Shown piece after piece: positions 3,844 through 61,213 of a stretch of 64,000 bases of DNA. This DNA is from Lachnoclostridium sp. An196. GTDB lineage: Bacteria; Bacillota; Clostridia; Lachnospirales; Lachnospiraceae. A program made the position numbers and the translations under genes. Each line of letters starts with the position of its first letter. The first letter of the stretch is position 1. The notes beneath the pieces are model-generated. The model did not search any database, was not told the DNA's origin, and worked only from the letters and a program-made list of their open reading frames with translations. The DNA lies in NCBI RefSeq assembly GCF_002160135.1, contig NZ_NFJZ01000004.1:1-64000 (forward strand). The letters run 5' to 3'.

Positions 3844-4539
3844 ATGTTAAAAGATCATTCACAGTTACAATTATCATTGTCACCATATCAGGGGCTTTAC
3901 GATGCAATCATTCCTGCAGATCATCTTTTGCGGAGAATAAAAGAAAATATAGATTTCAGCTTTGTAAATCCAATGCTTCGTAAGCAATATTGTGAAAATT
4001 TCGGTCGCCCGGCGAAGGAGCCGGAGATGATGTTTAAACTGCTTTTTCTGAAAAAACTGTATGATCTTTCTGATGAAGCTCTGATTAGCAGCGCCCAGAC
4101 GGACATGGCATTTAAATTTTTCCTTGATCTGGAACCGGAAGCAAAAATGATAGATCCCAGTCTTCTTACAAAATTCAGAAAAACTCGTATTACAGAAGAT
4201 ATCCTGGAAGAAATGCTGAAAGAAACTATTCAACAAGCGTTAGACAAAAAACTGATCAAATCGGGAACCATTATCGTTGATTCTACTCATACACTTGCGT
4301 CTGTTCGGGCAAAATCCCCAACGCAGATTCTGCGGGATATGAGCAAACAACTCCGGAAAGAGATTTATAAAACAGCTTTTGAATTATCAGAGCTATTTCC
4401 CGAGAAACCATCTTTGGAAGCAGGACTGGATGAAGAAATTGCCTACACTAAAGAACTACTCCAGACTCTGGAAGAAGGAATAGAAACCTGCGGAAATAAA
4501 AAAATACGGAAACTCTCGCAGGAGATGAAAAACTACTAG
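3844..4539 (+). CDS. IS1182-family transposase, N-terminal part (ORF A)
   Basis: N-terminal half of a DDE transposase: a DUF772-like region (about residues 10-115; FGRPAKEPEMMFKLLFLKKL is typical) and the first catalytic Asp in the IIVDSTHT strand. It stops at 4539, 231 codons in. The rest of the protein continues in the -1 frame: reading from the A7 run at 4498-4504 one base back gives NTETLAGDEKLLEDEHLKEI and joins smoothly to ORF B. The gene is therefore either naturally frameshifted or inactivated by a one-base indel. Confidence 0.85.
   Translation: MLKDHSQLQLSLSPYQGLYDAIIPADHLLRRIKENIDFSFVNPMLRKQYCENFGRPAKEPEMMFKLLFLKKLYDLSDEALISSAQTDMAFKFFLDLEPEAKMIDPSLLTKFRKTRITEDILEEMLKETIQQALDKKLIKSGTIIVDSTHTLASVRAKSPTQILRDMSKQLRKEIYKTAFELSELFPEKPSLEAGLDEEIAYTKELLQTLEEGIETCGNKKIRKLSQEMKNY
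4498..4504 (+). promoter_or_regulatory. A7 run at the transposase frame switch
   Basis: Seven consecutive A residues occur where the coding frame moves by -1. The zero-frame codons are AAA AAA ATA. P-site slippage of lysyl-tRNA on AAA would allow a -1 shift. The sequence alone cannot separate programmed frameshifting from a plain mutation. Confidence 0.45.
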
Positions 4540-49995: not shown

Positions 49996-51360
49996 TTATT
50001 TAACTGACTGCAAGAAGTTATAAGCATCGTTGATTCCGGTGACTGCAGCGGTGGAAGATCTGGTGGCTCCGGATACGGCGTCTACCTGCGTGCCGTTCTG
50101 AGGAGCGGCTGCCTCTTCTGCGGGAGCTTCCGGCGTCTCGATGCCTGCCGCCTGATCCAGACACTGCTGCGCCAGGTTCATGAATCCGCTCACGGAGATG
50201 CTGACGCCGGATACGGCGTCGGTCTTGCCTTCTTCGTTGGGATTCAGGAAGGAAAGGGACTGATTCTCGATCAGAGCCGAGCAGAGAGCTTCCGACTGCT
50301 CTTTCCAGGTGAGCCCGTCTTCCGTCATGGTATATTCACCGTTTTCAGAGAGAACGCTTTTGCTGGTGCCGTCTTCCATTACGGCGTCCCAGGTCACAGC
50401 AGTGACAGCGCCGTTTTCCACCGTGATGGACACTTGATCCGTATAACCGTTGGAATCCGGCTGGCCGGAAGCGGTGTAGGTTCCATCGGAGAGAGGAAGC
50501 GCCTCTTCCTGCGGTTCGATGCCCGCTGCCTGCTCCAGACACTGCTGCGCCAGGTTCATGAATCCGCTCACGGAGATGCTGACGCCGGATACGGCATCGG
50601 TCTTGCCTTCTTCATTGGGATTCAGGAAGGAGAGGGACTGATTCTCGATCAGAGCCGAACAGAGAGCTTCCGACTGCTCTTTCCAGGTGAGCCCGTCTTC
50701 CGTCATGGTATATTCACCGTTTTCAGAGAGGACGCTTTTGCTGGTGCCGTCTTCCATTACGGCGTCCCAGGTTACAGCGGTAATCGCACCATTTTCCACC
50801 GTGATGGACACCTGATCTGTATAACCGTTGGAATCCGGCTGACCGGAAGCGATGTATGTGCCGTCTGAAAGAGCGGCGCCTTCCAGCGTTTCCAGGGATT
50901 CCTGCGAAGCAGCTCCTTCGGTTTCGGATGCTGCTTTTTCTGCGGAGCCTGCGTCATCCAGCGTCATGCCCGGCAGATAAACCGGCGCGGCGACGCCTTT
51001 GAATTGATCCAGAAATTCCGGCTCTGCAATCCTGGATCCCAGGCTTTCGGTTTCATTCTGTTCCAGTACTTCTACGGAAGAGATCGTGGAAGCGTCCGAT
51101 TCGAATGCGACGCGCAGAACGATGTCGGAAGCATATCCGCTTTCGCGGACGGTTACTTCGTATCCGCTTTCTGTGCGGACGGCTTTTTCTACGGTTTCGG
51201 AGCCGCTTACGTCATATTCTTCCAGGGCGGCGGCAGTTTCCCCGGTGCCGGCGCTGCCTGCAATGTCTGTGGACAGCGCGCGGGAGCCGGCGATGACTCC
51301 GAATGAGAGCGCGGTCACCACGACCAGCGCAAGGATTCCTTTCACTTCTTTATTCTTCAT
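49996..51360 (-). CDS. rnfG: RnfG-like flavoprotein with tandem duplicated FMN-binding repeats
   Basis: 454 residues, exported by an N-terminal TM (KGILALVVVTALSFGVIAGS). After an RnfG-like N-terminal region (about 40-120; LGSRIAEPEFLDQFKG) come two nearly identical repeats of about 126 residues (DGTYIASGQPDSNGYTDQVS and DGTYTASGQPDSNGYTDQVS), each ending TDAVSGVSISVSG. A last motif VDAVSGATRSSTAAVTG resembles the RnfG flavinylation site D-x-x-[ST]-G-A-T-x-[ST]. Up to three covalent FMN sites are possible. The likely modifier is the ApbE at 42323. Confidence 0.82.
   Translation of the reverse strand: MKNKEVKGILALVVVTALSFGVIAGSRALSTDIAGSAGTGETAAALEEYDVSGSETVEKAVRTESGYEVTVRESGYASDIVLRVAFESDASTISSVEVLEQNETESLGSRIAEPEFLDQFKGVAAPVYLPGMTLDDAGSAEKAASETEGAASQESLETLEGAALSDGTYIASGQPDSNGYTDQVSITVENGAITAVTWDAVMEDGTSKSVLSENGEYTMTEDGLTWKEQSEALCSALIENQSLSFLNPNEEGKTDAVSGVSISVSGFMNLAQQCLEQAAGIEPQEEALPLSDGTYTASGQPDSNGYTDQVSITVENGAVTAVTWDAVMEDGTSKSVLSENGEYTMTEDGLTWKEQSEALCSALIENQSLSFLNPNEEGKTDAVSGVSISVSGFMNLAQQCLDQAAGIETPEAPAEEAAAPQNGTQVDAVSGATRSSTAAVTGINDAYNFLQSVK
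50158..50870 (-). repeat. 378-bp tandem repeat inside the RnfG-like gene
   Basis: Two copies lie head to tail, period 378 bp (126 codons), aligned by the shared CAGACACTGCTG at 50158 and 50536. They differ by few bases, so the duplication is recent. Confidence 0.85.
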
Positions 51361-53854: not shown

Positions 53855-54283
53855 TCATTTTCCGGAAATTTTTTCCTGATAACGGTCCAGGATGTCCTGG
53901 AGCGTGATATGCCGCATTTCTTCTTCTGCGGTTTTCTGGATCTGGTCAAAGTAGTCCTGAAGCGACAGCTGGATATGGACGCCCACTCCGCATTCCGGAT
54001 TTGTATGGGTGTCCAGATGGAGAAGAGGTTTGTCGCCTTCGACTGCTTTATAGACGTCCAGAAGGGTAGTAGAAGAAGGTTCCTTCGCCAGCGACGGCCA
54101 GGGATGTCCTTTTATGCTGGATAAAAGCCCGGCTTTGCGGAGCGCGGACATGAGCTGGCGTACGCATCCGGGGTTGGTGTGCATGCTCTTCGCGATACTG
54201 TCGCTGGACAGGGAACCGGTAGAATTTAACTGGATAAAAGCCAGGATATGGACGGCGTCGCTGACTTTCGTGGAATATTTCAT
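53855..54283 (-). CDS. Rrf2-family transcriptional regulator
   Basis: 142 residues. Winged helix (SDSIAKSMHTNPGCVRQLMSALRKAGLL, about 27-54; KSMHTNPGCVRQL is diagnostic) and a C-terminal helix. The three-Cys iron-sulfur motif of IscR is not present, so it is of the YwnA/YwgB type. Upstream of the Rnf-like genes on the same strand, so it is the candidate local regulator. Confidence 0.88.
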   Translation of the reverse strand: MKYSTKVSDAVHILAFIQLNSTGSLSSDSIAKSMHTNPGCVRQLMSALRKAGLLSSIKGHPWPSLAKEPSSTTLLDVYKAVEGDKPLLHLDTHTNPECGVGVHIQLSLQDYFDQIQKTAEEEMRHITLQDILDRYQEKISGK

Positions 54284-54390
54284 GGCTGTTTCCTCCTTGG
54301 ATGGTTACTATTCACAGCTCGCTCCACCTGCATGCGCACTCGCCGCCTGTGAATGGCAACCTTTGATGTTAATTTTATTATAACAACATA

Positions 54391-54419
54391 TTGACAAGCG
54401 TGCAACCGGATGTTAAATT
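54391..54419 (+). promoter_or_regulatory. Promoter of the sirtuin-like gene
   Basis: TTGACA 54391-54396, 17 bp, TAAATT 54414-54419 (TTAAAT at 16 bp is an alternative). Confidence 0.6.
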
Positions 54420-54469
54420 AGTGGTGTTAAAATAATATTTACAACAAATGTGAACAGGAGTGGTAAATC

Positions 54470-55441
54470 GTGACTTTTTATGAAAATCTTGTCATGCAGA
54501 CACAGATGAATTATTCCAGATATTACGGACTGTATGCGGAAGGGAAAACGCCGTACTCATTATCGGAGAAAACGGCGCTTCCGTATGAAGAACAGATCGG
54601 GCGGCTGGCAGATGAGATAAAAGAGGCAGAGTGTATCCTGGTAGGTGGCGCTTCGGGCCTGTCCGCGGCAGGCGGCGGCGACTTTTATTATGAGGATAAT
54701 GCCTCTTATCGGAAATATTTTGGAAAATACGCGGAGAAATATCATTTTAAGGGAGCCTTTGACGGTATGATGCGTCAGTGGGACAGCCGGGAGGAGTTCT
54801 GGGGTTATCTTGCTACTTTCCTTCACACCACCCAGACTGCCGGGCTCCGGGAACCCTACAAGGATCTGGACCGCCTTTTGCAGGGAAAAGACTTTTTTGT
54901 CATCACTACCAATCAGGACACGCAGTTTGTAAAGATCTATCCGGAGACTCAGGTGGCGCAGATCCAGGGCGACCACCGGTTTTTCCAGTGTGCCGGCTGC
55001 TGTACCGACGATACCTGGGACGCGGTAAAACCGGTGGAAGAGATGGTAAAGGCCATGGGAGAAGGGACTTCCGTGCCTTTGGAACTGATTCCCCGGTGTC
55101 CTCACTGCGGAGGAGAAGCGTTCCCATGGGTGCGGGGATACGGGAATTTCCTCCAGGGGAAAAAGTACGAGGAACAGTATGAAAAGGTGTCCCGCTATGT
55201 GCTGGAGCATAAGGACCGGAAAATATTGTTTCTGGAATTGGGCGTCGGGCGGCTGACTCCCATGTTCATCCAGGAGCCTTTCTGGAACCTGACCTTGAGT
55301 TTCCCGAATGCCCGGTATATTGCAGTGAATAACCAATATAATTTTCTGCCGAAAGAAATAGAAGACAAAGGAATGGTCATTGTGGGCGATATCGCCGGGG
55401 TGCTGAAGGATGCCGTGGAAAGAATGGGGAAAGAGATATGA
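54470..55441 (+). CDS. SirTM-like sirtuin (Sir2 family)
   Basis: 323 residues from GTG 54470 with CAGGAGTGG before it. NAD-binding GGASGLSAAGGGDF (about 57-70), TTNQDTQF (the TQN-D equivalent near 138), and zinc Cys pairs CAGCC and CPHCGG. At the place of the catalytic His (usual HG) it reads QIQGDHRFF, a Gln. That substitution is a mark of SirTM-class mono-ADP-ribosyltransferases rather than deacetylases. No macrodomain, GcvH-L or lipoate ligase is adjacent. Overlaps the DUF3786 gene by 4 bp. Confidence 0.82.
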   Translation: MTFYENLVMQTQMNYSRYYGLYAEGKTPYSLSEKTALPYEEQIGRLADEIKEAECILVGGASGLSAAGGGDFYYEDNASYRKYFGKYAEKYHFKGAFDGMMRQWDSREEFWGYLATFLHTTQTAGLREPYKDLDRLLQGKDFFVITTNQDTQFVKIYPETQVAQIQGDHRFFQCAGCCTDDTWDAVKPVEEMVKAMGEGTSVPLELIPRCPHCGGEAFPWVRGYGNFLQGKKYEEQYEKVSRYVLEHKDRKILFLELGVGRLTPMFIQEPFWNLTLSFPNARYIAVNNQYNFLPKEIEDKGMVIVGDIAGVLKDAVERMGKEI

Positions 55442-56067
55442 AGAATACAGCCTTTGAAAACATGAAGCAGGCGGCGCTGCAGCGGCTCTGCGGGAAAGCT
55501 CCGGAGGAAATCGGAAGAAATACCGGAATCCGGTTCTCGCCGGAGACATCGGAGTTCTGCCTGTCCTCACTCGGGAAAAGCATCACCGTAAAATATCCGG
55601 AATACAGTATGGCCAAAACAGTGAACGAATGGCACCAGCTGGTGATTCTTCACTATATGGATATGGCGGACCGGAGCAGCCTGACAGGGAAGCTGATAAG
55701 ATTTGAAGAGATTCCGGGAGGGATGGTAAGAGGCGGGGGCTTTGACAGATTGTGCGAGCAGACGGTCAGCCGTGATCTGGGAAACTGGCCGGAAAAGATG
55801 CTGGCTGCGGTCTGCCGGTCTCTGGGAGGCAGGATTTTTTCTTCCAACGCGGATTTTGCGGCGGAGTTTTCTTTCCTCCCCTTCTATCCTGTAACATTGA
55901 AAATATGGTTTGCGGACGAAGAGATGGCCGGAAGCGGGAGAATGTTTCTTGACAGCAGCGCAGGACATTTCCTGTCTGTAGAGGACGCGGTAACGGTAGG
56001 AACGCTGCTCCTGGAAGAGATACAGAAAAACGGCGGTCAATATGAGAGGGGGAAAATATTTGAGTGA
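55438..56067 (+). CDS. DUF3786 family protein
   Basis: 209 residues. ALQRLCGKAPEEIGRNTGIRF at the start, GGGFDRLC in the middle and the C-terminal FLSVEDAVTVGTLLLEEI match DUF3786, often found near corrinoid and metal-ATPase genes in anaerobes. No known activity. Coupled to the sirtuin gene (ATGA). Confidence 0.82.
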   Translation: MKNTAFENMKQAALQRLCGKAPEEIGRNTGIRFSPETSEFCLSSLGKSITVKYPEYSMAKTVNEWHQLVILHYMDMADRSSLTGKLIRFEEIPGGMVRGGGFDRLCEQTVSRDLGNWPEKMLAAVCRSLGGRIFSSNADFAAEFSFLPFYPVTLKIWFADEEMAGSGRMFLDSSAGHFLSVEDAVTVGTLLLEEIQKNGGQYERGKIFE

Positions 56068-56460
56068 CAGAAAACAGATCATCAGCAGGATCAGGAGGGA
56101 AGAAGTCTGTCGGAACTGATCCCCAGATGCCCGGTCTGCGGCGGATCTATGCAGGTACATATGGAAACCGACAGGAATTTCATTCCGGATATGGAGAGCC
56201 CAAAGCGGCTGGAGGTATTTCTGGAACGATATCATGGAAAGAAGCTGGTCATCCTGGAATTAGGCATCGGGTGGAGAAATCAGCTGATCAAAGCGCCTTT
56301 GATGCGGCTTGCGGCACAGGAATCGCAGGCTGTTTATGTGACGATCAACCTGGGCGAGATTTTTATCCCGGATGAGATCCGGGAAAAGTCTTACGGACTG
56401 GACGGGGATCTGACGGAGATTCTTCATGATCTGGCGGCATATTCCGGCGTTCATCTTTGA
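56068..56460 (+). pseudogene. Sirtuin C-terminal remnant (paralog of 54470-55441)
   Basis: Directly after the DUF3786 stop, in the same frame, DNA reads SLSELIPRCPVCGGSMQVH then, from ATG 56149, an intact C-terminal half (KKLVILELGIGWRNQLIK, QAVYVTINLGEIFIPDEI). This aligns with the sirtuin's LIPRCPHCGG and ILFLELGVG. The NAD-binding half is missing. The end overlaps the TetR gene 3' end by 98 bp. Confidence 0.72.
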
Positions 56461-57028
56461 TCAGGAAGCTTTCCAGACCGGATTTTATAAAACGGTCAAT
56501 CACCTGCTGGATACTCCCCCAGTCTCTGCAGTTGTTCTTCAGCATGCGTTTGTTGATAGCCAGACAGCCGTTCATCTGAAAGTAGAGTAATGCTTCAGCC
56601 TGTTCGTAAGAGAGCAGGCTGTTTTGCATGAGCCTGGTAATAAAATCTTCCTTTGAAAGTTCGCAGAGTTTATCCAGTAGCCGGGCAGAAGCGGTCTCGT
56701 CGGAAAAAAGAATGCGAAATTCCCGGCTTTCCTGTACTTTCCGGCAGAAAGGGTAAGTGCATCGGTCTTTTTCAGGACACATCACATGGTCGAAGACCTG
56801 CGTTGTGTCCTGAATGGTTTTTTCTATGATATCGTCCAGGACGTCATCCAGATCATAATAATGAAGGTAAAAAGTTCCCCGGTTGATCTCCGACAGTTTG
56901 CAGATCTCCGTGACCGTAACTTTGGTGAATGGTTTCTGCTGCATCAGGGACAGCAGGGAATCGCGGATGACATTCTGTGTATATCTGGTACGCCGGTCCA
57001 CGGACTGGCCATTTCTTTTGGAACTCAA
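56363..57028 (-). CDS. TetR-family transcriptional regulator
   Basis: 221 residues from TTG 57028, with GAGGTG 6 bases upstream. N-terminal helix-turn-helix VTVTEICKLSEINRGTFYLHY (about 40-60), C-terminal ligand domain with Cys (CPEKDRCTYPFC). The final 30 residues (PPDHEESPSDPRPVRKTFPG) overlap the sirtuin remnant and look non-native. Divergent from the CooC-like gene; a 14-bp palindrome lies between. Confidence 0.85.
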   Translation of the reverse strand: MSSKRNGQSVDRRTRYTQNVIRDSLLSLMQQKPFTKVTVTEICKLSEINRGTFYLHYYDLDDVLDDIIEKTIQDTTQVFDHVMCPEKDRCTYPFCRKVQESREFRILFSDETASARLLDKLCELSKEDFITRLMQNSLLSYEQAEALLYFQMNGCLAINKRMLKNNCRDWGSIQQVIDRFIKSGLESFLIKDERRNMPPDHEESPSDPRPVRKTFPGSHPG

Positions 57029-57149
57029 AACAGACACCTCTTTCTGTACAATTATACAAAAGTGTTCAGGAATCATACAGATTCCTGAATCTGACGATTG
57101 AAACACGGTACAGTTTTATTATAATAGATTTAACGAAATAATCAACACT

Positions 57150-57163
57150 ATGTTTATAAACAT
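57150..57163. promoter_or_regulatory. Palindromic operator candidate between TetR and CooC-like genes
   Basis: ATGTTTATAAACAT, a perfect 14-bp palindrome, 23 bp before ATG 57186, likely the TetR site. Confidence 0.55.
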
Positions 57164-57185
57164 ACAAAATGTACAGGAGGACATT

Positions 57186-57956
57186 ATGGGGCATATTATC
57201 GCAGTATCGGGAAAAGGCGGCGTGGGAAAGACCACGCTGTGCGGCCTGCTGATCCAGTATCTCTGCGAAACCGGGAAAAAACCGGTACTGGCCGTAGATG
57301 CGGACGCAAACGCAAATCTTAACGAGGTGCTGGGAGTGGAAACAGGAGTGACGTTGGGAGAGCTCCGGGAAGAAATTGAAAGGGCCGGTGTCGATCCAAG
57401 ATACAAAATACCCGCCGGTATTACCAAAGCAGCCTATCTGGAAAGCCGGCTCGCCGACGCCCTGACGGAAGAAGACGACTATGATCTGATGGTGATGGGC
57501 AGATCTCAGGGGCAGGGATGCTACTGCTTTGTAAATGGGATCGTACAGACGCAGGTTCAGAAGCTGCAGAGCCATTACCCTTATATCGTGGTGGACAATG
57601 AGGCGGGTATGGAGCATATCAGCAGAGGGATTCTTCCGAATATGGAGATCGCGATCCTGGTCAGCGACTGCTCGCGGAGAGGGGTGCAGGCGGCCGGAAG
57701 AATCGCGGCGCTGATGAAAGAACTGAATTTTCATCCGAAGAAAGTAGGCCTGATCGTCAACCGGGCGCCGGGCGGAGAACTGGACAAAGGAACGATGGAA
57801 GAAATCCAGAAGCAGAATCTGGACCTGCTGGGAGTCGTCCCTCAGGACGACGACGTATACCGCTTCGACTGCGAGGGACGCCCCACGGTGCAGCTTCCGG
57901 CGGACTCTCCGGTCAGAGAAGCGCTGAAAGGGATCATAGAAAAACTGGGTATATGA
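57186..57956 (+). CDS. CooC-like metal-cluster ATPase
   Basis: 256 residues from ATG 57186 (AGGAGG upstream). Deviant Walker A SGKGGVGKTT (about 7-16) and VDADANANLNEVLG. Cys112-Tyr-Cys114 in GQGCYCFVN is the CxC motif of CooC, which dimerises to bind nickel. CooC matures the nickel site of CO dehydrogenase; no cooS or acs gene is in the window, so the target here is unknown. Confidence 0.88.
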   Translation: MGHIIAVSGKGGVGKTTLCGLLIQYLCETGKKPVLAVDADANANLNEVLGVETGVTLGELREEIERAGVDPRYKIPAGITKAAYLESRLADALTEEDDYDLMVMGRSQGQGCYCFVNGIVQTQVQKLQSHYPYIVVDNEAGMEHISRGILPNMEIAILVSDCSRRGVQAAGRIAALMKELNFHPKKVGLIVNRAPGGELDKGTMEEIQKQNLDLLGVVPQDDDVYRFDCEGRPTVQLPADSPVREALKGIIEKLGI

Positions 57957-57989: not shown

Positions 57990-58190
57990 ATGGCTGTATT
58001 TGCGGATTGTCAGGATGTCCGGAGGATGGTCATGATCAAAGAGATGGCCTGCCCTGAATGCGGAGCCGGAGATGGCATTGAGGTGTTTGAAAGAGACGGC
58101 CTGACCGTAGGGGACAGTGTCTGCAGCCGGTGCGGATTCACAATCCCGGAGGGCGTCGGCCTGGAAGACTACCTCAAAAATTTACTATGA
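57990..58190 (+). CDS. Small zinc-ribbon protein (66 aa)
   Basis: Two CxxC pairs, ACPECGAGD and VCSRCGFTIP. Not recognised as a known family. Between the two CooC-like genes and in the same direction, so possibly a metal chaperone accessory. Confidence 0.6.
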   Translation: MAVFADCQDVRRMVMIKEMACPECGAGDGIEVFERDGLTVGDSVCSRCGFTIPEGVGLEDYLKNLL

Positions 58191-58276: not shown

Positions 58277-59065
58277 ATGAAAGTGACAATATGCGGAAAA
58301 GGCGGATGCGGAAAAAGCACAGTCACCAGCCTGCTGGCGAAAGCTCTGGCAAGGCGGGGAAACGAAGTGCTGGTGATCGATTCGGATGAATCTAATTATG
58401 GGCTTCACAGACAGCTGGGCATGGAACTCCCCGGGGATTTTACAGGATATTTCGGGGGAAAAGAGAATGTATTGAATGATATGCTGTTATCGAAGTTCAC
58501 TCATCAGTTTTTCCAGGAGACTTGGACAATGAAAGATATTCCGGAAAAATATTACAACCTGAAGGACGGGGTGAAACTGATGGTCAGCGGAAAAATCCAT
58601 CAGGCCAATGAGGGCTGCTCCTGCGCAATGGGAACGGTCATGACACAGTTTGTCCAGAACCTGCGGCTTGCCGAAAACCAGTTCGCGCTGCTGGATATGG
58701 AAGCCGGAGTGGAACATTTCGGCAGGGGAATTGACAACGGTGTAGATCTGGTGCTGATGATCGTAGATCCTTCTTATGAATCGCTGCAGCTCTCCAAGAA
58801 GGTCGGGGAACTGGCAGAGAGCATTGGGAAGCCTTTCTATTATGTTTTAAATAAAGTAACCGAAGACAGTCGGGAGATGATGTATGAAAATGTATGGAGA
58901 CCCGAACAGGTTGCGGCCTGTCTCGGAACGGATTCCGCAATCATGAAAGAGGGCCTGACAGGAAAAGAACTGTCTGAAAAACCGGAGCCCATTGAACGCC
59001 TGACAGATTTTCTGCTTTCTCTCGCGTCGAAACAGGAGGGATCACATGTTACAGGAACAGTATGA
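58277..59065 (+). CDS. Second CooC-like metal-cluster ATPase
   Basis: 262 residues from ATG 58277 (TAGGAGAT upstream). Deviant Walker A GKGGCGKST (about 6-14), VIDSDESNYGLH. CxC motif at Cys114-Cys116 in EGCSCAMGTVMTQF. A true paralog of the gene at 57186, not a copy. It probably serves a different cluster or forms a heterodimer. Confidence 0.87.
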   Translation: MKVTICGKGGCGKSTVTSLLAKALARRGNEVLVIDSDESNYGLHRQLGMELPGDFTGYFGGKENVLNDMLLSKFTHQFFQETWTMKDIPEKYYNLKDGVKLMVSGKIHQANEGCSCAMGTVMTQFVQNLRLAENQFALLDMEAGVEHFGRGIDNGVDLVLMIVDPSYESLQLSKKVGELAESIGKPFYYVLNKVTEDSREMMYENVWRPEQVAACLGTDSAIMKEGLTGKELSEKPEPIERLTDFLLSLASKQEGSHVTGTV

Positions 59066-59280
59066 GAAGCACAACCTGGAAATGCAGCCCTATCATTATT
59101 ACCTCTCGGAATACCAGAATATGGATCCGGGGGATATCAGCCGGCATCTGGAAGTCCCATTTGATGAAAATACCCCGCTTCCGCGCAGATCCTTTTCTCG
59201 GACAATTTTCCGGCAGCTTATGCGGCGGAAGATGCGGCCTATATCGGAGATGTGGTGCTGGACTATATAAAAGGGCTGCT
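59046..59280 (+). pseudogene. Broken DUF3786-like gene
   Basis: Starts MLQEQYEKHNLEMQPYHYYL, then NMDPGDISRHLEVPFDEN in the DUF3786 N-terminal style. After about 59200 the DUF3786-like end (DNFPAAYAAEDAAYIGDVVLDYI) continues in another frame and stops at 59285-59287. A frameshift and an internal deletion have reduced a normal ~200-residue protein to about 77 codons. Confidence 0.5.
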
Positions 59281-59667
59281 GATTTGACTTATTGTACCGG
59301 CTTGTTCTGCGGATCGGATGATTTCCGCCAGCTTTTCTTTCACGGAAGCAGAAGCGGCTTCTTCCTCTGCCAGAGATGCATATAAGTGGATGGTATCGAT
59401 ACAGGCTGTTATTTCAGCCTGCATGGAGTCTCTCTTTTGCAGCTTTTCGAGGTTTTCGGCCTGAGCGGTATTCAATTCTTTTACACGCTGTTCCGCAGCG
59501 GCTTTGGCAGATTCCAGTTCTGCAGCCTTTTGCTTCAGCTCATCTGACAGCTGCCGTATCAGTTCTGCTTTCTGACGGATTTCTTGAATTTCTTTATTCC
59601 TTTTTTGTATACTGCCAATCAGGAACGCTATGAGTACAATAAGCGGAATAAATAATAGATACAGCAT
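59263..59667 (-). CDS. Membrane-anchored coiled-coil protein
   Basis: 134 residues. TM at about 2-19 (LYLLFIPLIVLIAFLIG), then a long heptad coil (KRNKEIQEIRQKAEL to about 85). Lies 13 bp after the HEPN-like fusion gene and in the same direction; it may form a two-gene unit. Function unknown. Confidence 0.6.
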   Translation of the reverse strand: MLYLLFIPLIVLIAFLIGSIQKRNKEIQEIRQKAELIRQLSDELKQKAAELESAKAAAEQRVKELNTAQAENLEKLQKRDSMQAEITACIDTIHLYASLAEEEAASASVKEKLAEIIRSAEQAGTISQISSPFI

Positions 59668-59680
59668 GGTTCTCCTCCTG

Positions 59681-60607
59681 CTACAGATACTTTTTTATCG
59701 CTTCGCGAAAAGCGTTTAACTGGACGGGAATGGAAAGAACCGTCAGTTTTCCGGGGTTTTTGCCGATCTTTTCTGTCTGTGTCGGGTCATGGGCGAGCAG
59801 GATCACGGGCGTTGTCTTATCAGAGCGCCACGGCTGGTCGGGCTGCCTAGTCAGGTCGTCGGTTATTATCCAGAGGTCAGGCCCGCGTTTTTCCAGTTTC
59901 TTTCTGGCTATGCCCGGGGACGAAAATATTAAGACCTGATCAGAAAAAGTCCGCAGCACCTGCATCAACCCTTTCGCGTACGGTTCATTTCCGCACAGAA
60001 GAACGATAACAGAAGCGGAGGGAAATTGTCTGGAAGCCTGGATAAAATCCAGAACAGGCGTATTATATAAGCTGAAATCTTTTTTGGTATGTGCGGCTTC
60101 ATAATAATTTCTCGCCGCCCGACACATCCTCAGGCAAAACTGTTCAATATCGATACGTATATCCGCTGCGTCCGTGCCCGCGGCGGCATGTTCCGCCTGA
60201 CAGACGGATGTCCCGCAGTTCACCCCAAGATGAAAGCGTACGGTTTTTTCATCGTCGTTGATAAAGCCTTTATTCTGGTGCAGATATTCACAGCGGAGCT
60301 GCCAGCAGCGCTCGCCGCATATATAGGCTGACGTATCCTCCGGCGAAAGCTTGAAAAAATCGGAAGCATACTGATCAAACCAGCGAATGTACTGCCCGCC
60401 TACATCGCGGGTTGGATTTTTATGGCGGTCCAGCATGGCGCGACCGTCCCGATATTTTTTTACCATATCAGGGAACGCGATCCCTCCGCAAATATCCGGC
60501 AGCGTCAGGGTAAGCGCGAGCGCTGACTGCCACCGTCTGTCCCTGACATTCATTTCCACTTCTTCTATGCGATGCAGAAAAGTAAAGCTTACGTCGCCCG
60601 GATTCAT
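59681..60607 (-). CDS. HEPN-like and receiver-like fusion protein
   Basis: 308 residues from ATG 60607 (GGGAGGGAG upstream). Residues about 10-115 form a conserved domain (WQSALALTLTLPDICGG, RWFDQYASDFF, QLRCEYLHQNK) whose R105-x4-H110 looks like the HEPN RNase motif. The C-terminal third (about 205-305) looks like a receiver fold (SVIVLLCGNEPYAKGLMQVLR, LWIITDDL) without a clear phosphorylatable Asp. An unusual pairing of a HEPN-like domain with a signal-type domain. Confidence 0.6.
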   Translation of the reverse strand: MNPGDVSFTFLHRIEEVEMNVRDRRWQSALALTLTLPDICGGIAFPDMVKKYRDGRAMLDRHKNPTRDVGGQYIRWFDQYASDFFKLSPEDTSAYICGERCWQLRCEYLHQNKGFINDDEKTVRFHLGVNCGTSVCQAEHAAAGTDAADIRIDIEQFCLRMCRAARNYYEAAHTKKDFSLYNTPVLDFIQASRQFPSASVIVLLCGNEPYAKGLMQVLRTFSDQVLIFSSPGIARKKLEKRGPDLWIITDDLTRQPDQPWRSDKTTPVILLAHDPTQTEKIGKNPGKLTVLSIPVQLNAFREAIKKYL

Positions 60608-60682
60608 AGTCTCCCTCCCAAGAAACAGACTTCCAAGATCATTAAATTCAGTATACGGAATCAAAACTGCTCTGTCAATAAA

Positions 60683-61213
60683 TCAGCGATGACAAACAGC
60701 TCCGTCTATTTGCATGTGCCTGTATTCCCGCGGCGTACAGTTATAAAAGCGTCTGAACATTTTCGTGAAATTGCTGGGGCTGTCAAACCCGCAGCGGACC
60801 GCAGCCTCTGAGATACTGGCCGCCGGATCCTCAAGCAGCATCTTGGCTCCCTGCATGACCCGGTACTTTAATAAATATTGGATCGGGGATATCTGAAGCA
60901 TTTTCTGAAAGCATCGCAGGCATTCCCGTTCGCTGATATCCGCCGCGGCCGCGGCATAATGAAGAATATTAGAATTGATAACCGCGATTTGTCCTTTGCT
61001 TAACAAGAATGAAGATGAGGATGTTTTCAGCTTCAGCTGCCCTTCTGCGATCCATATAATTTCCATTTCTTCATGCCAATGCCAGGGAATGGTATCCTCT
61101 GTTTTTTCTGTATGATGAGAAGCATAACCCGCGCAGGGAAATTCAAAGCTTCCGTGGGGTTGAAGCTCTTTTGATACCCGGTTCAGATTTAATCCGCATT
61201 CCTGCAATGCCAT
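60683..61213 (-). CDS. AraC-family regulator with apparent internal deletion
   Basis: 176 residues. An N-terminal cupin with WHWHEEMEIIWI (about 43-54) runs, at NSNILHYAAAAADISERECLRC (about 79-100), straight into the second half of an AraC HTH (KMLQISPIQYLLKYR). Usual members are about 280 residues, so roughly 100 residues, including the first HTH helices, are missing in frame. Divergent from the MFS gene. Probably non-functional as a DNA binder. Confidence 0.7.
   Translation of the reverse strand: MALQECGLNLNRVSKELQPHGSFEFPCAGYASHHTEKTEDTIPWHWHEEMEIIWIAEGQLKLKTSSSSFLLSKGQIAVINSNILHYAAAAADISERECLRCFQKMLQISPIQYLLKYRVMQGAKMLLEDPAASISEAAVRCGFDSPSNFTKMFRRFYNCTPREYRHMQIDGAVCHR

Follow-up and report, generated by a model that had tools for sequence, protein, structure and literature searches.

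Introduction

The closest described relatives of the protein examined here are the SirTMs, or class M sirtuins. In SpySirTM, Asn118, Gln137 and Arg192 are needed, according to Rack et al. (2015; PMC4518038). As stated by Ariza et al. (2024; PMC11490716), ADP-ribosylation by a SirTM is known for no protein other than GcvH-L, and the targets in other SirTM systems are unknown.

We analyzed a SirTM-like gene, sirtuin A (open reading frame 54470-55441), in a 64,000-nucleotide stretch of DNA from Lachnoclostridium sp. An196 (positions 1 to 64,000 of contig NZ_NFJZ01000004.1; hereafter the window). The window is part of contig C25 in our numbering, and the genome measures 3.25 Mb. We report that A is almost constantly accompanied by a second SirTM-like gene, B, which carries Glu at the position of the SirTM Gln. 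We consider it reasonably probable that A and B would form one NAD-dependent protein-modification switch, controlled by an Rrf2-family regulator, with metallocofactor maturation of the Wood-Ljungdahl enzyme carbon monoxide dehydrogenase/acetyl-CoA synthase (CODH/ACS) as a possible target.

Results

Sirtuin A groups with the SirTMs

In a phmmer comparison with solved structures, A matched SpySirTM (5a3a) best, at E 6.6e-38, followed by 8rsn, a fungal SirTM fused to a macrodomain, at E 1.1e-16; deacylase sirtuins matched only at E >= 0.13. A profile of 41 A sequences recovered the same two structures (6e-50 and 1.4e-17), with no further match at E <= 0.001. The AlphaFold model of A (predicted local distance difference test score, pLDDT, 89) likewise had 5a3a as its best Foldseek match (E 2.1e-23). 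The Pfam SIR2 model scored A below its cut-off (14.5 vs 24 bits), and the sole match above that cut-off in the genome lies on another contig (C10).

Gln166 of A aligned with SpySirTM Gln137 in several alignments, Asn148 and Arg222 correspond to Asn118 and Arg192, Asp150 corresponds to Asp120, and the four zinc Cys residues are retained. These positions hold across the relatives described below: taking one length-filtered A per locus, which dropped 7 of 80 loci, the Gln, Asn and Asp were present in 73/73 and the Arg in 72/73. The gene starts with GTG, and because the residues directly after it (FYE.LV) are conserved in homologs, GTG is likely the true start. An N-terminal extension of about 38 residues is conserved too.

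Phylogenies built with FastTree and IQ-TREE both placed A inside the SirTMs, in a clade with a third type found at some loci, the Gln-bearing sister type C (support for A + C of 0.977 and 100, respectively). In both trees, A and the SirTMs were separate from deacylases, which a single outgroup represented. The FastTree set retained proteins of 240-360 amino acids, a length filter that removed 26 of the 174 cluster members; the IQ-TREE set had 51 rows, drawn at random for A, B and C and taken as the first 16 listed for the ordinary SirTM type.

An earlier note on this DNA had read the Gln as a replacement of the catalytic His, as in SirTMs. The alignment of Gln166, the other motifs, the tree and the fold all bear this out, and the phylogeny that the note called for put A with SirTMs and not with deacetylases, the Gln being correctly aligned. 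Most likely, A is a class M-type sirtuin, predicted from its residues and fold to transfer ADP-ribose from NAD+ to a protein. The possibility that A is an ordinary deacylase was ruled out by its sub-threshold Pfam SIR2 score together with the tree and fold.

A second sirtuin gene, B, accompanies A

A scan of named genomes with two A peptide patterns found 210 relatives of A, of which the best 80 (69-98% identity) were kept. They come from Lachnospiraceae, Oscillospiraceae, Desulfovibrio, Collinsella, Succinivibrionaceae and other taxa, and such high identity of A across phyla suggests that the pair has spread horizontally. A B-type gene, whole or partial, was present at 66 of the 80 loci and at 53 of the 58 with at least 3 kb of downstream sequence. 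The five misses were L054 (a 110-residue B-like end only), L087, L098, L099 and L122 (an 88-residue piece upstream). At 49 loci B could be read by its motifs: it was on the same strand as A in 48 and downstream in 45, with a gap of at most 60 bases in 29 and a 4-base overlap in 11. Among the gene families that we tabulated, none besides B was constant at A loci.

This set was picked via A patterns and says nothing on B without A, which 397 genomes of one family do cover. There, 21 genomes had both genes (one being the window remnant described below), 2 had A without B (G175 and G185), none had B without A, and 374 had neither (Fisher 6e-33, kinship ignored). At E < 1e-90, B was found in 20/397 genomes, all of them A carriers, with coordinates that we read as lying within 1.2 kb of A on the same strand. 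Cut-offs were set by gaps in the match lists (E 4.2e-73 for A carriers, 1e-90 for B and about 1e-55 for the Zn-type macrodomain). The distance matrices of A and B were also correlated (r 0.76 over 51 pairs; maximum of 2000 permutations, 0.33).

Like A, B matches the SirTM fold: its profile found 5a3a at 4.8e-59 and 8rsn at 1.4e-22, with the next match at 0.07, and its predicted model (pLDDT 94) matched 5a3a at E 1.4e-25. The fold, the zinc Cys residues, Asn118 and Asn258 are retained, and the marks of a SirTM enzyme, Gln137, Arg192 and GVGx[NT]TP, are all missing. Glu stands at the Gln137 position in 55/55 near-full-length B proteins (one per locus) and at the Asp120 position in 54/55, no Arg aligns with Arg192, and mostly GIGWRNQ replaces GVGxxTP. 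B formed its own clade in both trees (0.999 in FastTree, 100 in IQ-TREE), and the node joining it to ordinary SirTMs was weakly supported (0.258 and 56). These features mark B not as a second Gln enzyme but as a distinct paralog family.

Median ratios of nonsynonymous to synonymous substitution rates (dN/dS) over 52 locus pairs were 0.15 for B and 0.11 for A, and B is under purifying selection. Together with the conserved residues, this led us to reject the idea that B is generally a pseudogene in decay, although it is incomplete at L054, L063, L103 and L122 and in the window. We also observed a short, 230-residue form of B at L110, L112, L114, L117, L120 and L121, downstream of A and behind a TetR-type regulator, not Rrf2. 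It has TSNGD, with the Asp kept, and Glu at the Gln column in a rougher alignment, and its length excluded it from the 55/55 count.

The strict pairing and close spacing, with no other tabulated family constant at these loci, would also fit B serving A as its substrate or as an inhibitory partner, in a self-contained system of writer and target. Five polar active-site residues (Glu134, Glu117, Asn115, His119 and Asn227) are, however, invariant in 39 aligned B proteins, which exceeds the needs of a mere target, and we think this reading very improbable.

Equally doubtful to us is that A and B make up a mixed NAD-degrading complex, as proposed for FAM118A/FAM118B, and do not modify proteins. That precedent, two sirtuins weak singly and much stronger in NAD processing jointly (PMC12700824), has its parallel in the co-encoded and co-varying A and B. 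The two proteins nevertheless match SirTMs in sequence and fold, and both FAM118 partners need an active-site His (PMC12700824), which A and B lack at that position. PADLOC-DB gave no match at E <= 0.1, and the recurring neighbors of A are redox, metal and regulator genes. With no PADLOC-DB match at that threshold for A or intact B, a defense system was rejected for either protein. Near A-B pairs (L081, L085, L088 and others) we repeatedly found a radical-SAM gene with weak likeness to spore-photoproduct lyase, another radical-SAM gene of the DUF5131 type and a P-type ATPase gene, at 19, 15 and 19 of the 80 loci, respectively.

The window holds a remnant of B

The earlier note had described a second sirtuin C-terminal half downstream of the DUF3786 gene and concluded that the locus once carried two sirtuins. 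Both statements hold. Positions 56110-56457 plus the stop codon match the final 116 codons of an intact 286-residue B in a relative, G013 (L036, 6939-7799, minus strand), whose A protein is 98% identical to that of the window; intact homologs of the remnant were found at L036 and L046. The window and G013 align on both flanks, and the window lacks 442 bp inside B, an out-of-frame loss. Since about 17 codons from the beginning of B (from 56042) are retained as well, the remnant reflects an internal deletion and not a mere N-terminal loss. The term "truncated paralog" therefore needs amendment: the remnant is real, but it belongs to the distinct, Glu-bearing family B and keeps N-terminal codons on the far side of its 442-bp gap. 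Intact double-sirtuin loci, which the note had proposed to look for in relatives, exist, and the pair is the usual state there and not a local duplication.

The usual SirTM partners

We found no macrodomain match in the window. The genome of strain An196 gave no match to GcvH (PF01597) and none to LplA (PF21948, the only model used); controls matched in 13/14 for each. By these models, the GcvH-L and LplA2 genes of the extended SirTM operon were not found in this genome. Because neither GcvH nor LplA matched, the known SirTM substrate appears to be missing from this genome, and going by gene content the target of A there would not be lipoyl-GcvH-L. Among 26 A carriers, GcvH matched in 9, above the cut-off in 6 and near full length in 2; the others covered 34-67 of 122 positions.

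The genome does carry a Zn-type macrodomain, on contig C27, away from A. This gene (L039:5600-6916) adjoins another Rrf2-like gene, 35% identical to the Rrf2 of the window, and has no SirTM beside it. The earlier note's statement that the macrodomain and lipoate partners are absent is thus correct for the locus and, as regards GcvH and LplA, for the genome, but not as regards the Zn-type macrodomain. One ordinary SirTM is encoded on contig C30, with a second SirTM-like C-terminal fragment slightly downstream (L006:8464-8835). On contig C8, a half-size SirTM-like gene of 177 residues, without the zinc Cys pairs by eye (L007:5941-6474), has a corrinoid methyltransferase-like cluster on one side and a hisH-like gene on the other; G010, G011 and G016 contain weak matches to it of about the same size.

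Across the 397 genomes, the Zn-type macrodomain tracks ordinary SirTMs, not A: it was present in 149/161 carriers of a SirTM other than A, in 16/213 genomes without a SirTM match and in 14/23 A carriers. It occurred in about 2/11 A carriers without an ordinary SirTM, as read by eye among the matches listed. At the 80 A loci, a macrodomain matched in four (L069, L074, L093 and L095), none adjoining A in the fetched flank; that of L093 adjoins a separate SirTM of ordinary type.

These counts bear on a simpler account, in which A is an ordinary orphan SirTM that acts like SpySirTM and is reversed in trans by the macrodomain on C27, with B as a non-catalytic accessory. A keeps the SirTM residues, and this genome has a Zn-type macrodomain, as do the 14 A carriers counted above. 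The macrodomain is missing, however, from the remaining 9/23, and its company is that of ordinary SirTMs, one of which this genome holds on C30. B, moreover, was not found without A in the 397 genomes and has a conserved active site. We regard this account as unlikely, with a modest chance of being right.

A putative Rrf2 operator at A promoters

An Rrf2 gene lies directly divergent from A in 50 of the 80 loci. The dyad TGTTA-N9-TAACA occurs exactly in 33 of 49 Rrf2-A intergenic regions, vs at most 2 in any of 20 shuffled sets. Allowing up to one mismatch, it is present at 48/50 Rrf2-divergent A promoters, 0/10 TetR-divergent ones and 8/20 with neither regulator, and in 21/1600 shuffles. In the window, an exact and a near dyad flank a TTGACA...TTAAAT pair; one more near match, at 3845, is no more than chance would give. 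Among 55 Rrf2 proteins, the motif NPxCG[VI]G was counted 52 times. Going by the correlation between site and regulator, the Rrf2 protein would most likely repress the A operon through the sites around the promoter. The Rrf2 family is known for iron-sulfur and redox sensing, and a redox or iron-sulfur signal might release the repression.

A possible link to CODH/ACS maturation

CooC-like ATPases lie near A in 20/80 loci, with a CxC motif in 36/36 members longer than 220 residues, and DUF3786-like genes in 23/80. The first CooC-like protein of the window shares 65% identity with a protein encoded next to cooS in this genome (L176). This cooS cluster (cooS tested by model) also holds a DUF3786-like gene, whose product is 41% identical to the second DUF3786-like protein as encoded in G013, and further genes that we take to be AcsB, AcsC, AcsD, AcsE and a corrinoid activator. 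The exact operator precedes a DUF3786-CooC run (L073), a DUF3786-A-B run (L052) and a FrdA/FrdB-like-CooC run (L055). At L055 (2220-4531), two exact copies stand in front of a FAD/fumarate-reductase-like gene pair, after which come genes for CooC, a zinc-ribbon protein and a CooC-like protein. Before the heads of DUF3786-like runs, the operator was found in 3/37 cases (L052 and L073 exact, L060 with one mismatch). A literature search on DUF3786 returned a sole match, which concerned another subject, and one on CooC together with Rrf2 returned two. By gene neighborhood, CODH/ACS maturation (CooC-like ATPases and DUF3786) is linked to A and is the best candidate pathway here for its target, as a lead.

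One specific version of the switch would make both sirtuins enzymes: A would modify a CODH/ACS maturation protein, such as a CooC-like ATPase, and B, with its Glu at the catalytic position, would remove the ADP-ribose. CooC-like ATPases are relatives of NifH, which is switched by ADP-ribosylation via DraT/DraG. We hold this version to be quite improbable; if true, it would mean that a sirtuin-fold ADP-ribosylhydrolase takes the place of a macrodomain and that gut bacteria have an NAD-linked switch acting on the Wood-Ljungdahl pathway.

State of the window locus

The features of the locus are listed in Table 1.

Table 1. Features of the sirtuin A locus in the window
Feature	Position	Strand	Remarks
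Rrf2-family regulator	53855..54283	-	Divergent from A; Pfam Rrf2 E 2.4e-28, 99.4 bits vs cut-off 30
Operator-like dyad TGTTA-N9-TAACA, exact	54367..54385	+	Just upstream of TTGACA box at 54391 (box by eye)
Second operator-like dyad, one mismatch	54425..54443	+	Downstream of TTAAAT box (by eye)
Sirtuin A	54470..55441	+	323 residues; Gln166, Asn148, Asp150, Arg222; zinc Cys 174/178/210/213; GVGRLTP loop
DUF3786 protein (DUF3786a)	55438..56067	+	209 residues; ATG overlaps stop of A; between A and B; Pfam E 1e-37
Remnant of sirtuin B	56042..56460	+	First ~17 codons; internal deletion near 56088-56103; last 116 codons 56110-56460 including stop
TetR-family regulator	56363..57106	-	Divergent from CooC-like genes; likely start 57037; TetR_N E 3e-4, below cut-off
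First CooC-like ATPase	57150..57956	+	CxC motif; likely start 57186
Small zinc-ribbon protein	57990..58190	+	Between both CooC-like genes
Second CooC-like ATPase	58277..59065	+	CxC motif; start set by comparison with G013
Second DUF3786-like gene, broken	59046..59292	+	402-bp deletion vs G013; intact copy there 214 residues; named by similarity

The order A-DUF3786-B recurs at L046, L048 and L049, and a TetR-like gene is present in 32/80 A loci. Relative to G013, the window has further differences: a 1361-bp segment in the broken second DUF3786-like gene (59293-60653), absent from G013 and with two larger open reading frames without a Pfam match; a 384-bp internal deletion in an AraC-type gene (60683-61213); and a 90-bp deletion in a major facilitator superfamily gene at about 62162. 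Elsewhere in the window, 49996-51360 encodes an RnfG-like FMN_bind protein with near-identical internal repeats and two Pfam stretches. The differences from G013 reflect either ongoing loss of island segments in the window strain or an assembly error.

With three broken genes in about 5 kb compared with G013 (B, the second DUF3786-like gene and the AraC-type gene), the locus might be decaying, leaving A without a remaining role in Lachnoclostridium sp. An196. We judge this improbable. No damage is seen in A, DUF3786a, Rrf2, the two dyads or the two CooC-like genes, and dN/dS of A against G013 is 0.19, a value that mostly reflects time before the loss. Decay is also silent on the intact A-B pairs elsewhere.

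Discussion

In the proposed A-B switch, A would transfer ADP-ribose from NAD+ to a protein, and B appears to hold the genetic place that the Zn-type macrodomain has in known SirTM systems, so that the two proteins probably function jointly as a single switch. B could be an eraser, an obligate subunit or the target. In the window strain, where B is broken, the switch would be incomplete or A would act alone.

Several observations weigh against this proposal. The published SirTM class is partly defined by linkage to a Zn-type macrodomain, which A does not show. The A loop, GVGR[LMI]TP, has L, M or I at the fifth position, where the class motif GVGx[NT]TP calls for N or T, the rest being kept, and A also differs from SpySirTM at Ala34 (Ser) and Ala119 (Gln). 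Two A carriers are without B and five loci, including the window, have only a partial B, so A may not always need B; strict pairing, for its part, leaves the role of B undefined. As to the pathway, the presence of CooS (E <= 1e-100) in 17/23 A carriers vs 68/374 other genomes speaks for the CODH/ACS link, but the Fisher value of 3.5e-8 ignores kinship and the match in G178, among the 17, falls short of the cut-off of the model. Against the link, no CooC gene was seen in 60/80 A loci within a fetched flank of up to 9 kb, many contigs being shorter. The operator, with up to one mismatch, was found within 220 bp upstream of 0/41 CooC-like genes, which ruled it out as a rule at CooC promoters.

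What the locus offers is a conserved SirTM branch, mostly in genomes without full-length GcvH, together with an almost constant partner gene, a probable regulator with its operator, and a candidate pathway. The substrate question for SirTMs without their usual partners thereby becomes testable in gut anaerobes. By title and abstract, the literature searched contained no described Gln/Glu SirTM pair, with preprints and most subscription papers outside its scope, and no assay of a B-like sirtuin-fold protein with a Glu active site was found in it.

Among known systems, CODH/ACS maturation genes of the CooC/AcsF and DUF3786 type resemble the CooC-like and DUF3786-like proteins of the window, which differ from CODH/ACS clusters in being extra copies with no adjoining CODH gene in the window. 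FAM118A/FAM118B (PMC12700824) is a paralogous sirtuin pair acting jointly, as we propose for A and B, but it belongs to a different sirtuin branch, depends on His and is a vertebrate system. A shares with class M sirtuins such as SpySirTM (5a3a; PMC4518038) the fold, the Gln in place of His, Asn118, Asp120, Arg192, the zinc site and the tree cluster. It differs in having no adjoining macrodomain gene, no GcvH-L/LplA2 match, the GVGR[LMI]TP loop, an N-terminal extension, a Glu-type partner gene and an Rrf2-linked operator. The nearest parallel in gene layout is the SirTM/Zn-Macro minimal operon (Ariza et al., 2024; PMC11490716), which like A-B is an NAD-dependent module of two genes that does not include GcvH-L. 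A separate SirTM/Zn-macro pair is also present in some A carriers (e.g., G121, G037 and G178). In A-B the second gene is a sirtuin, not a Zn-type macrodomain, and by its gene content a SirTM whose partner is a Glu-type sister and not a macrodomain constitutes a new arrangement of the known SirTM kind.

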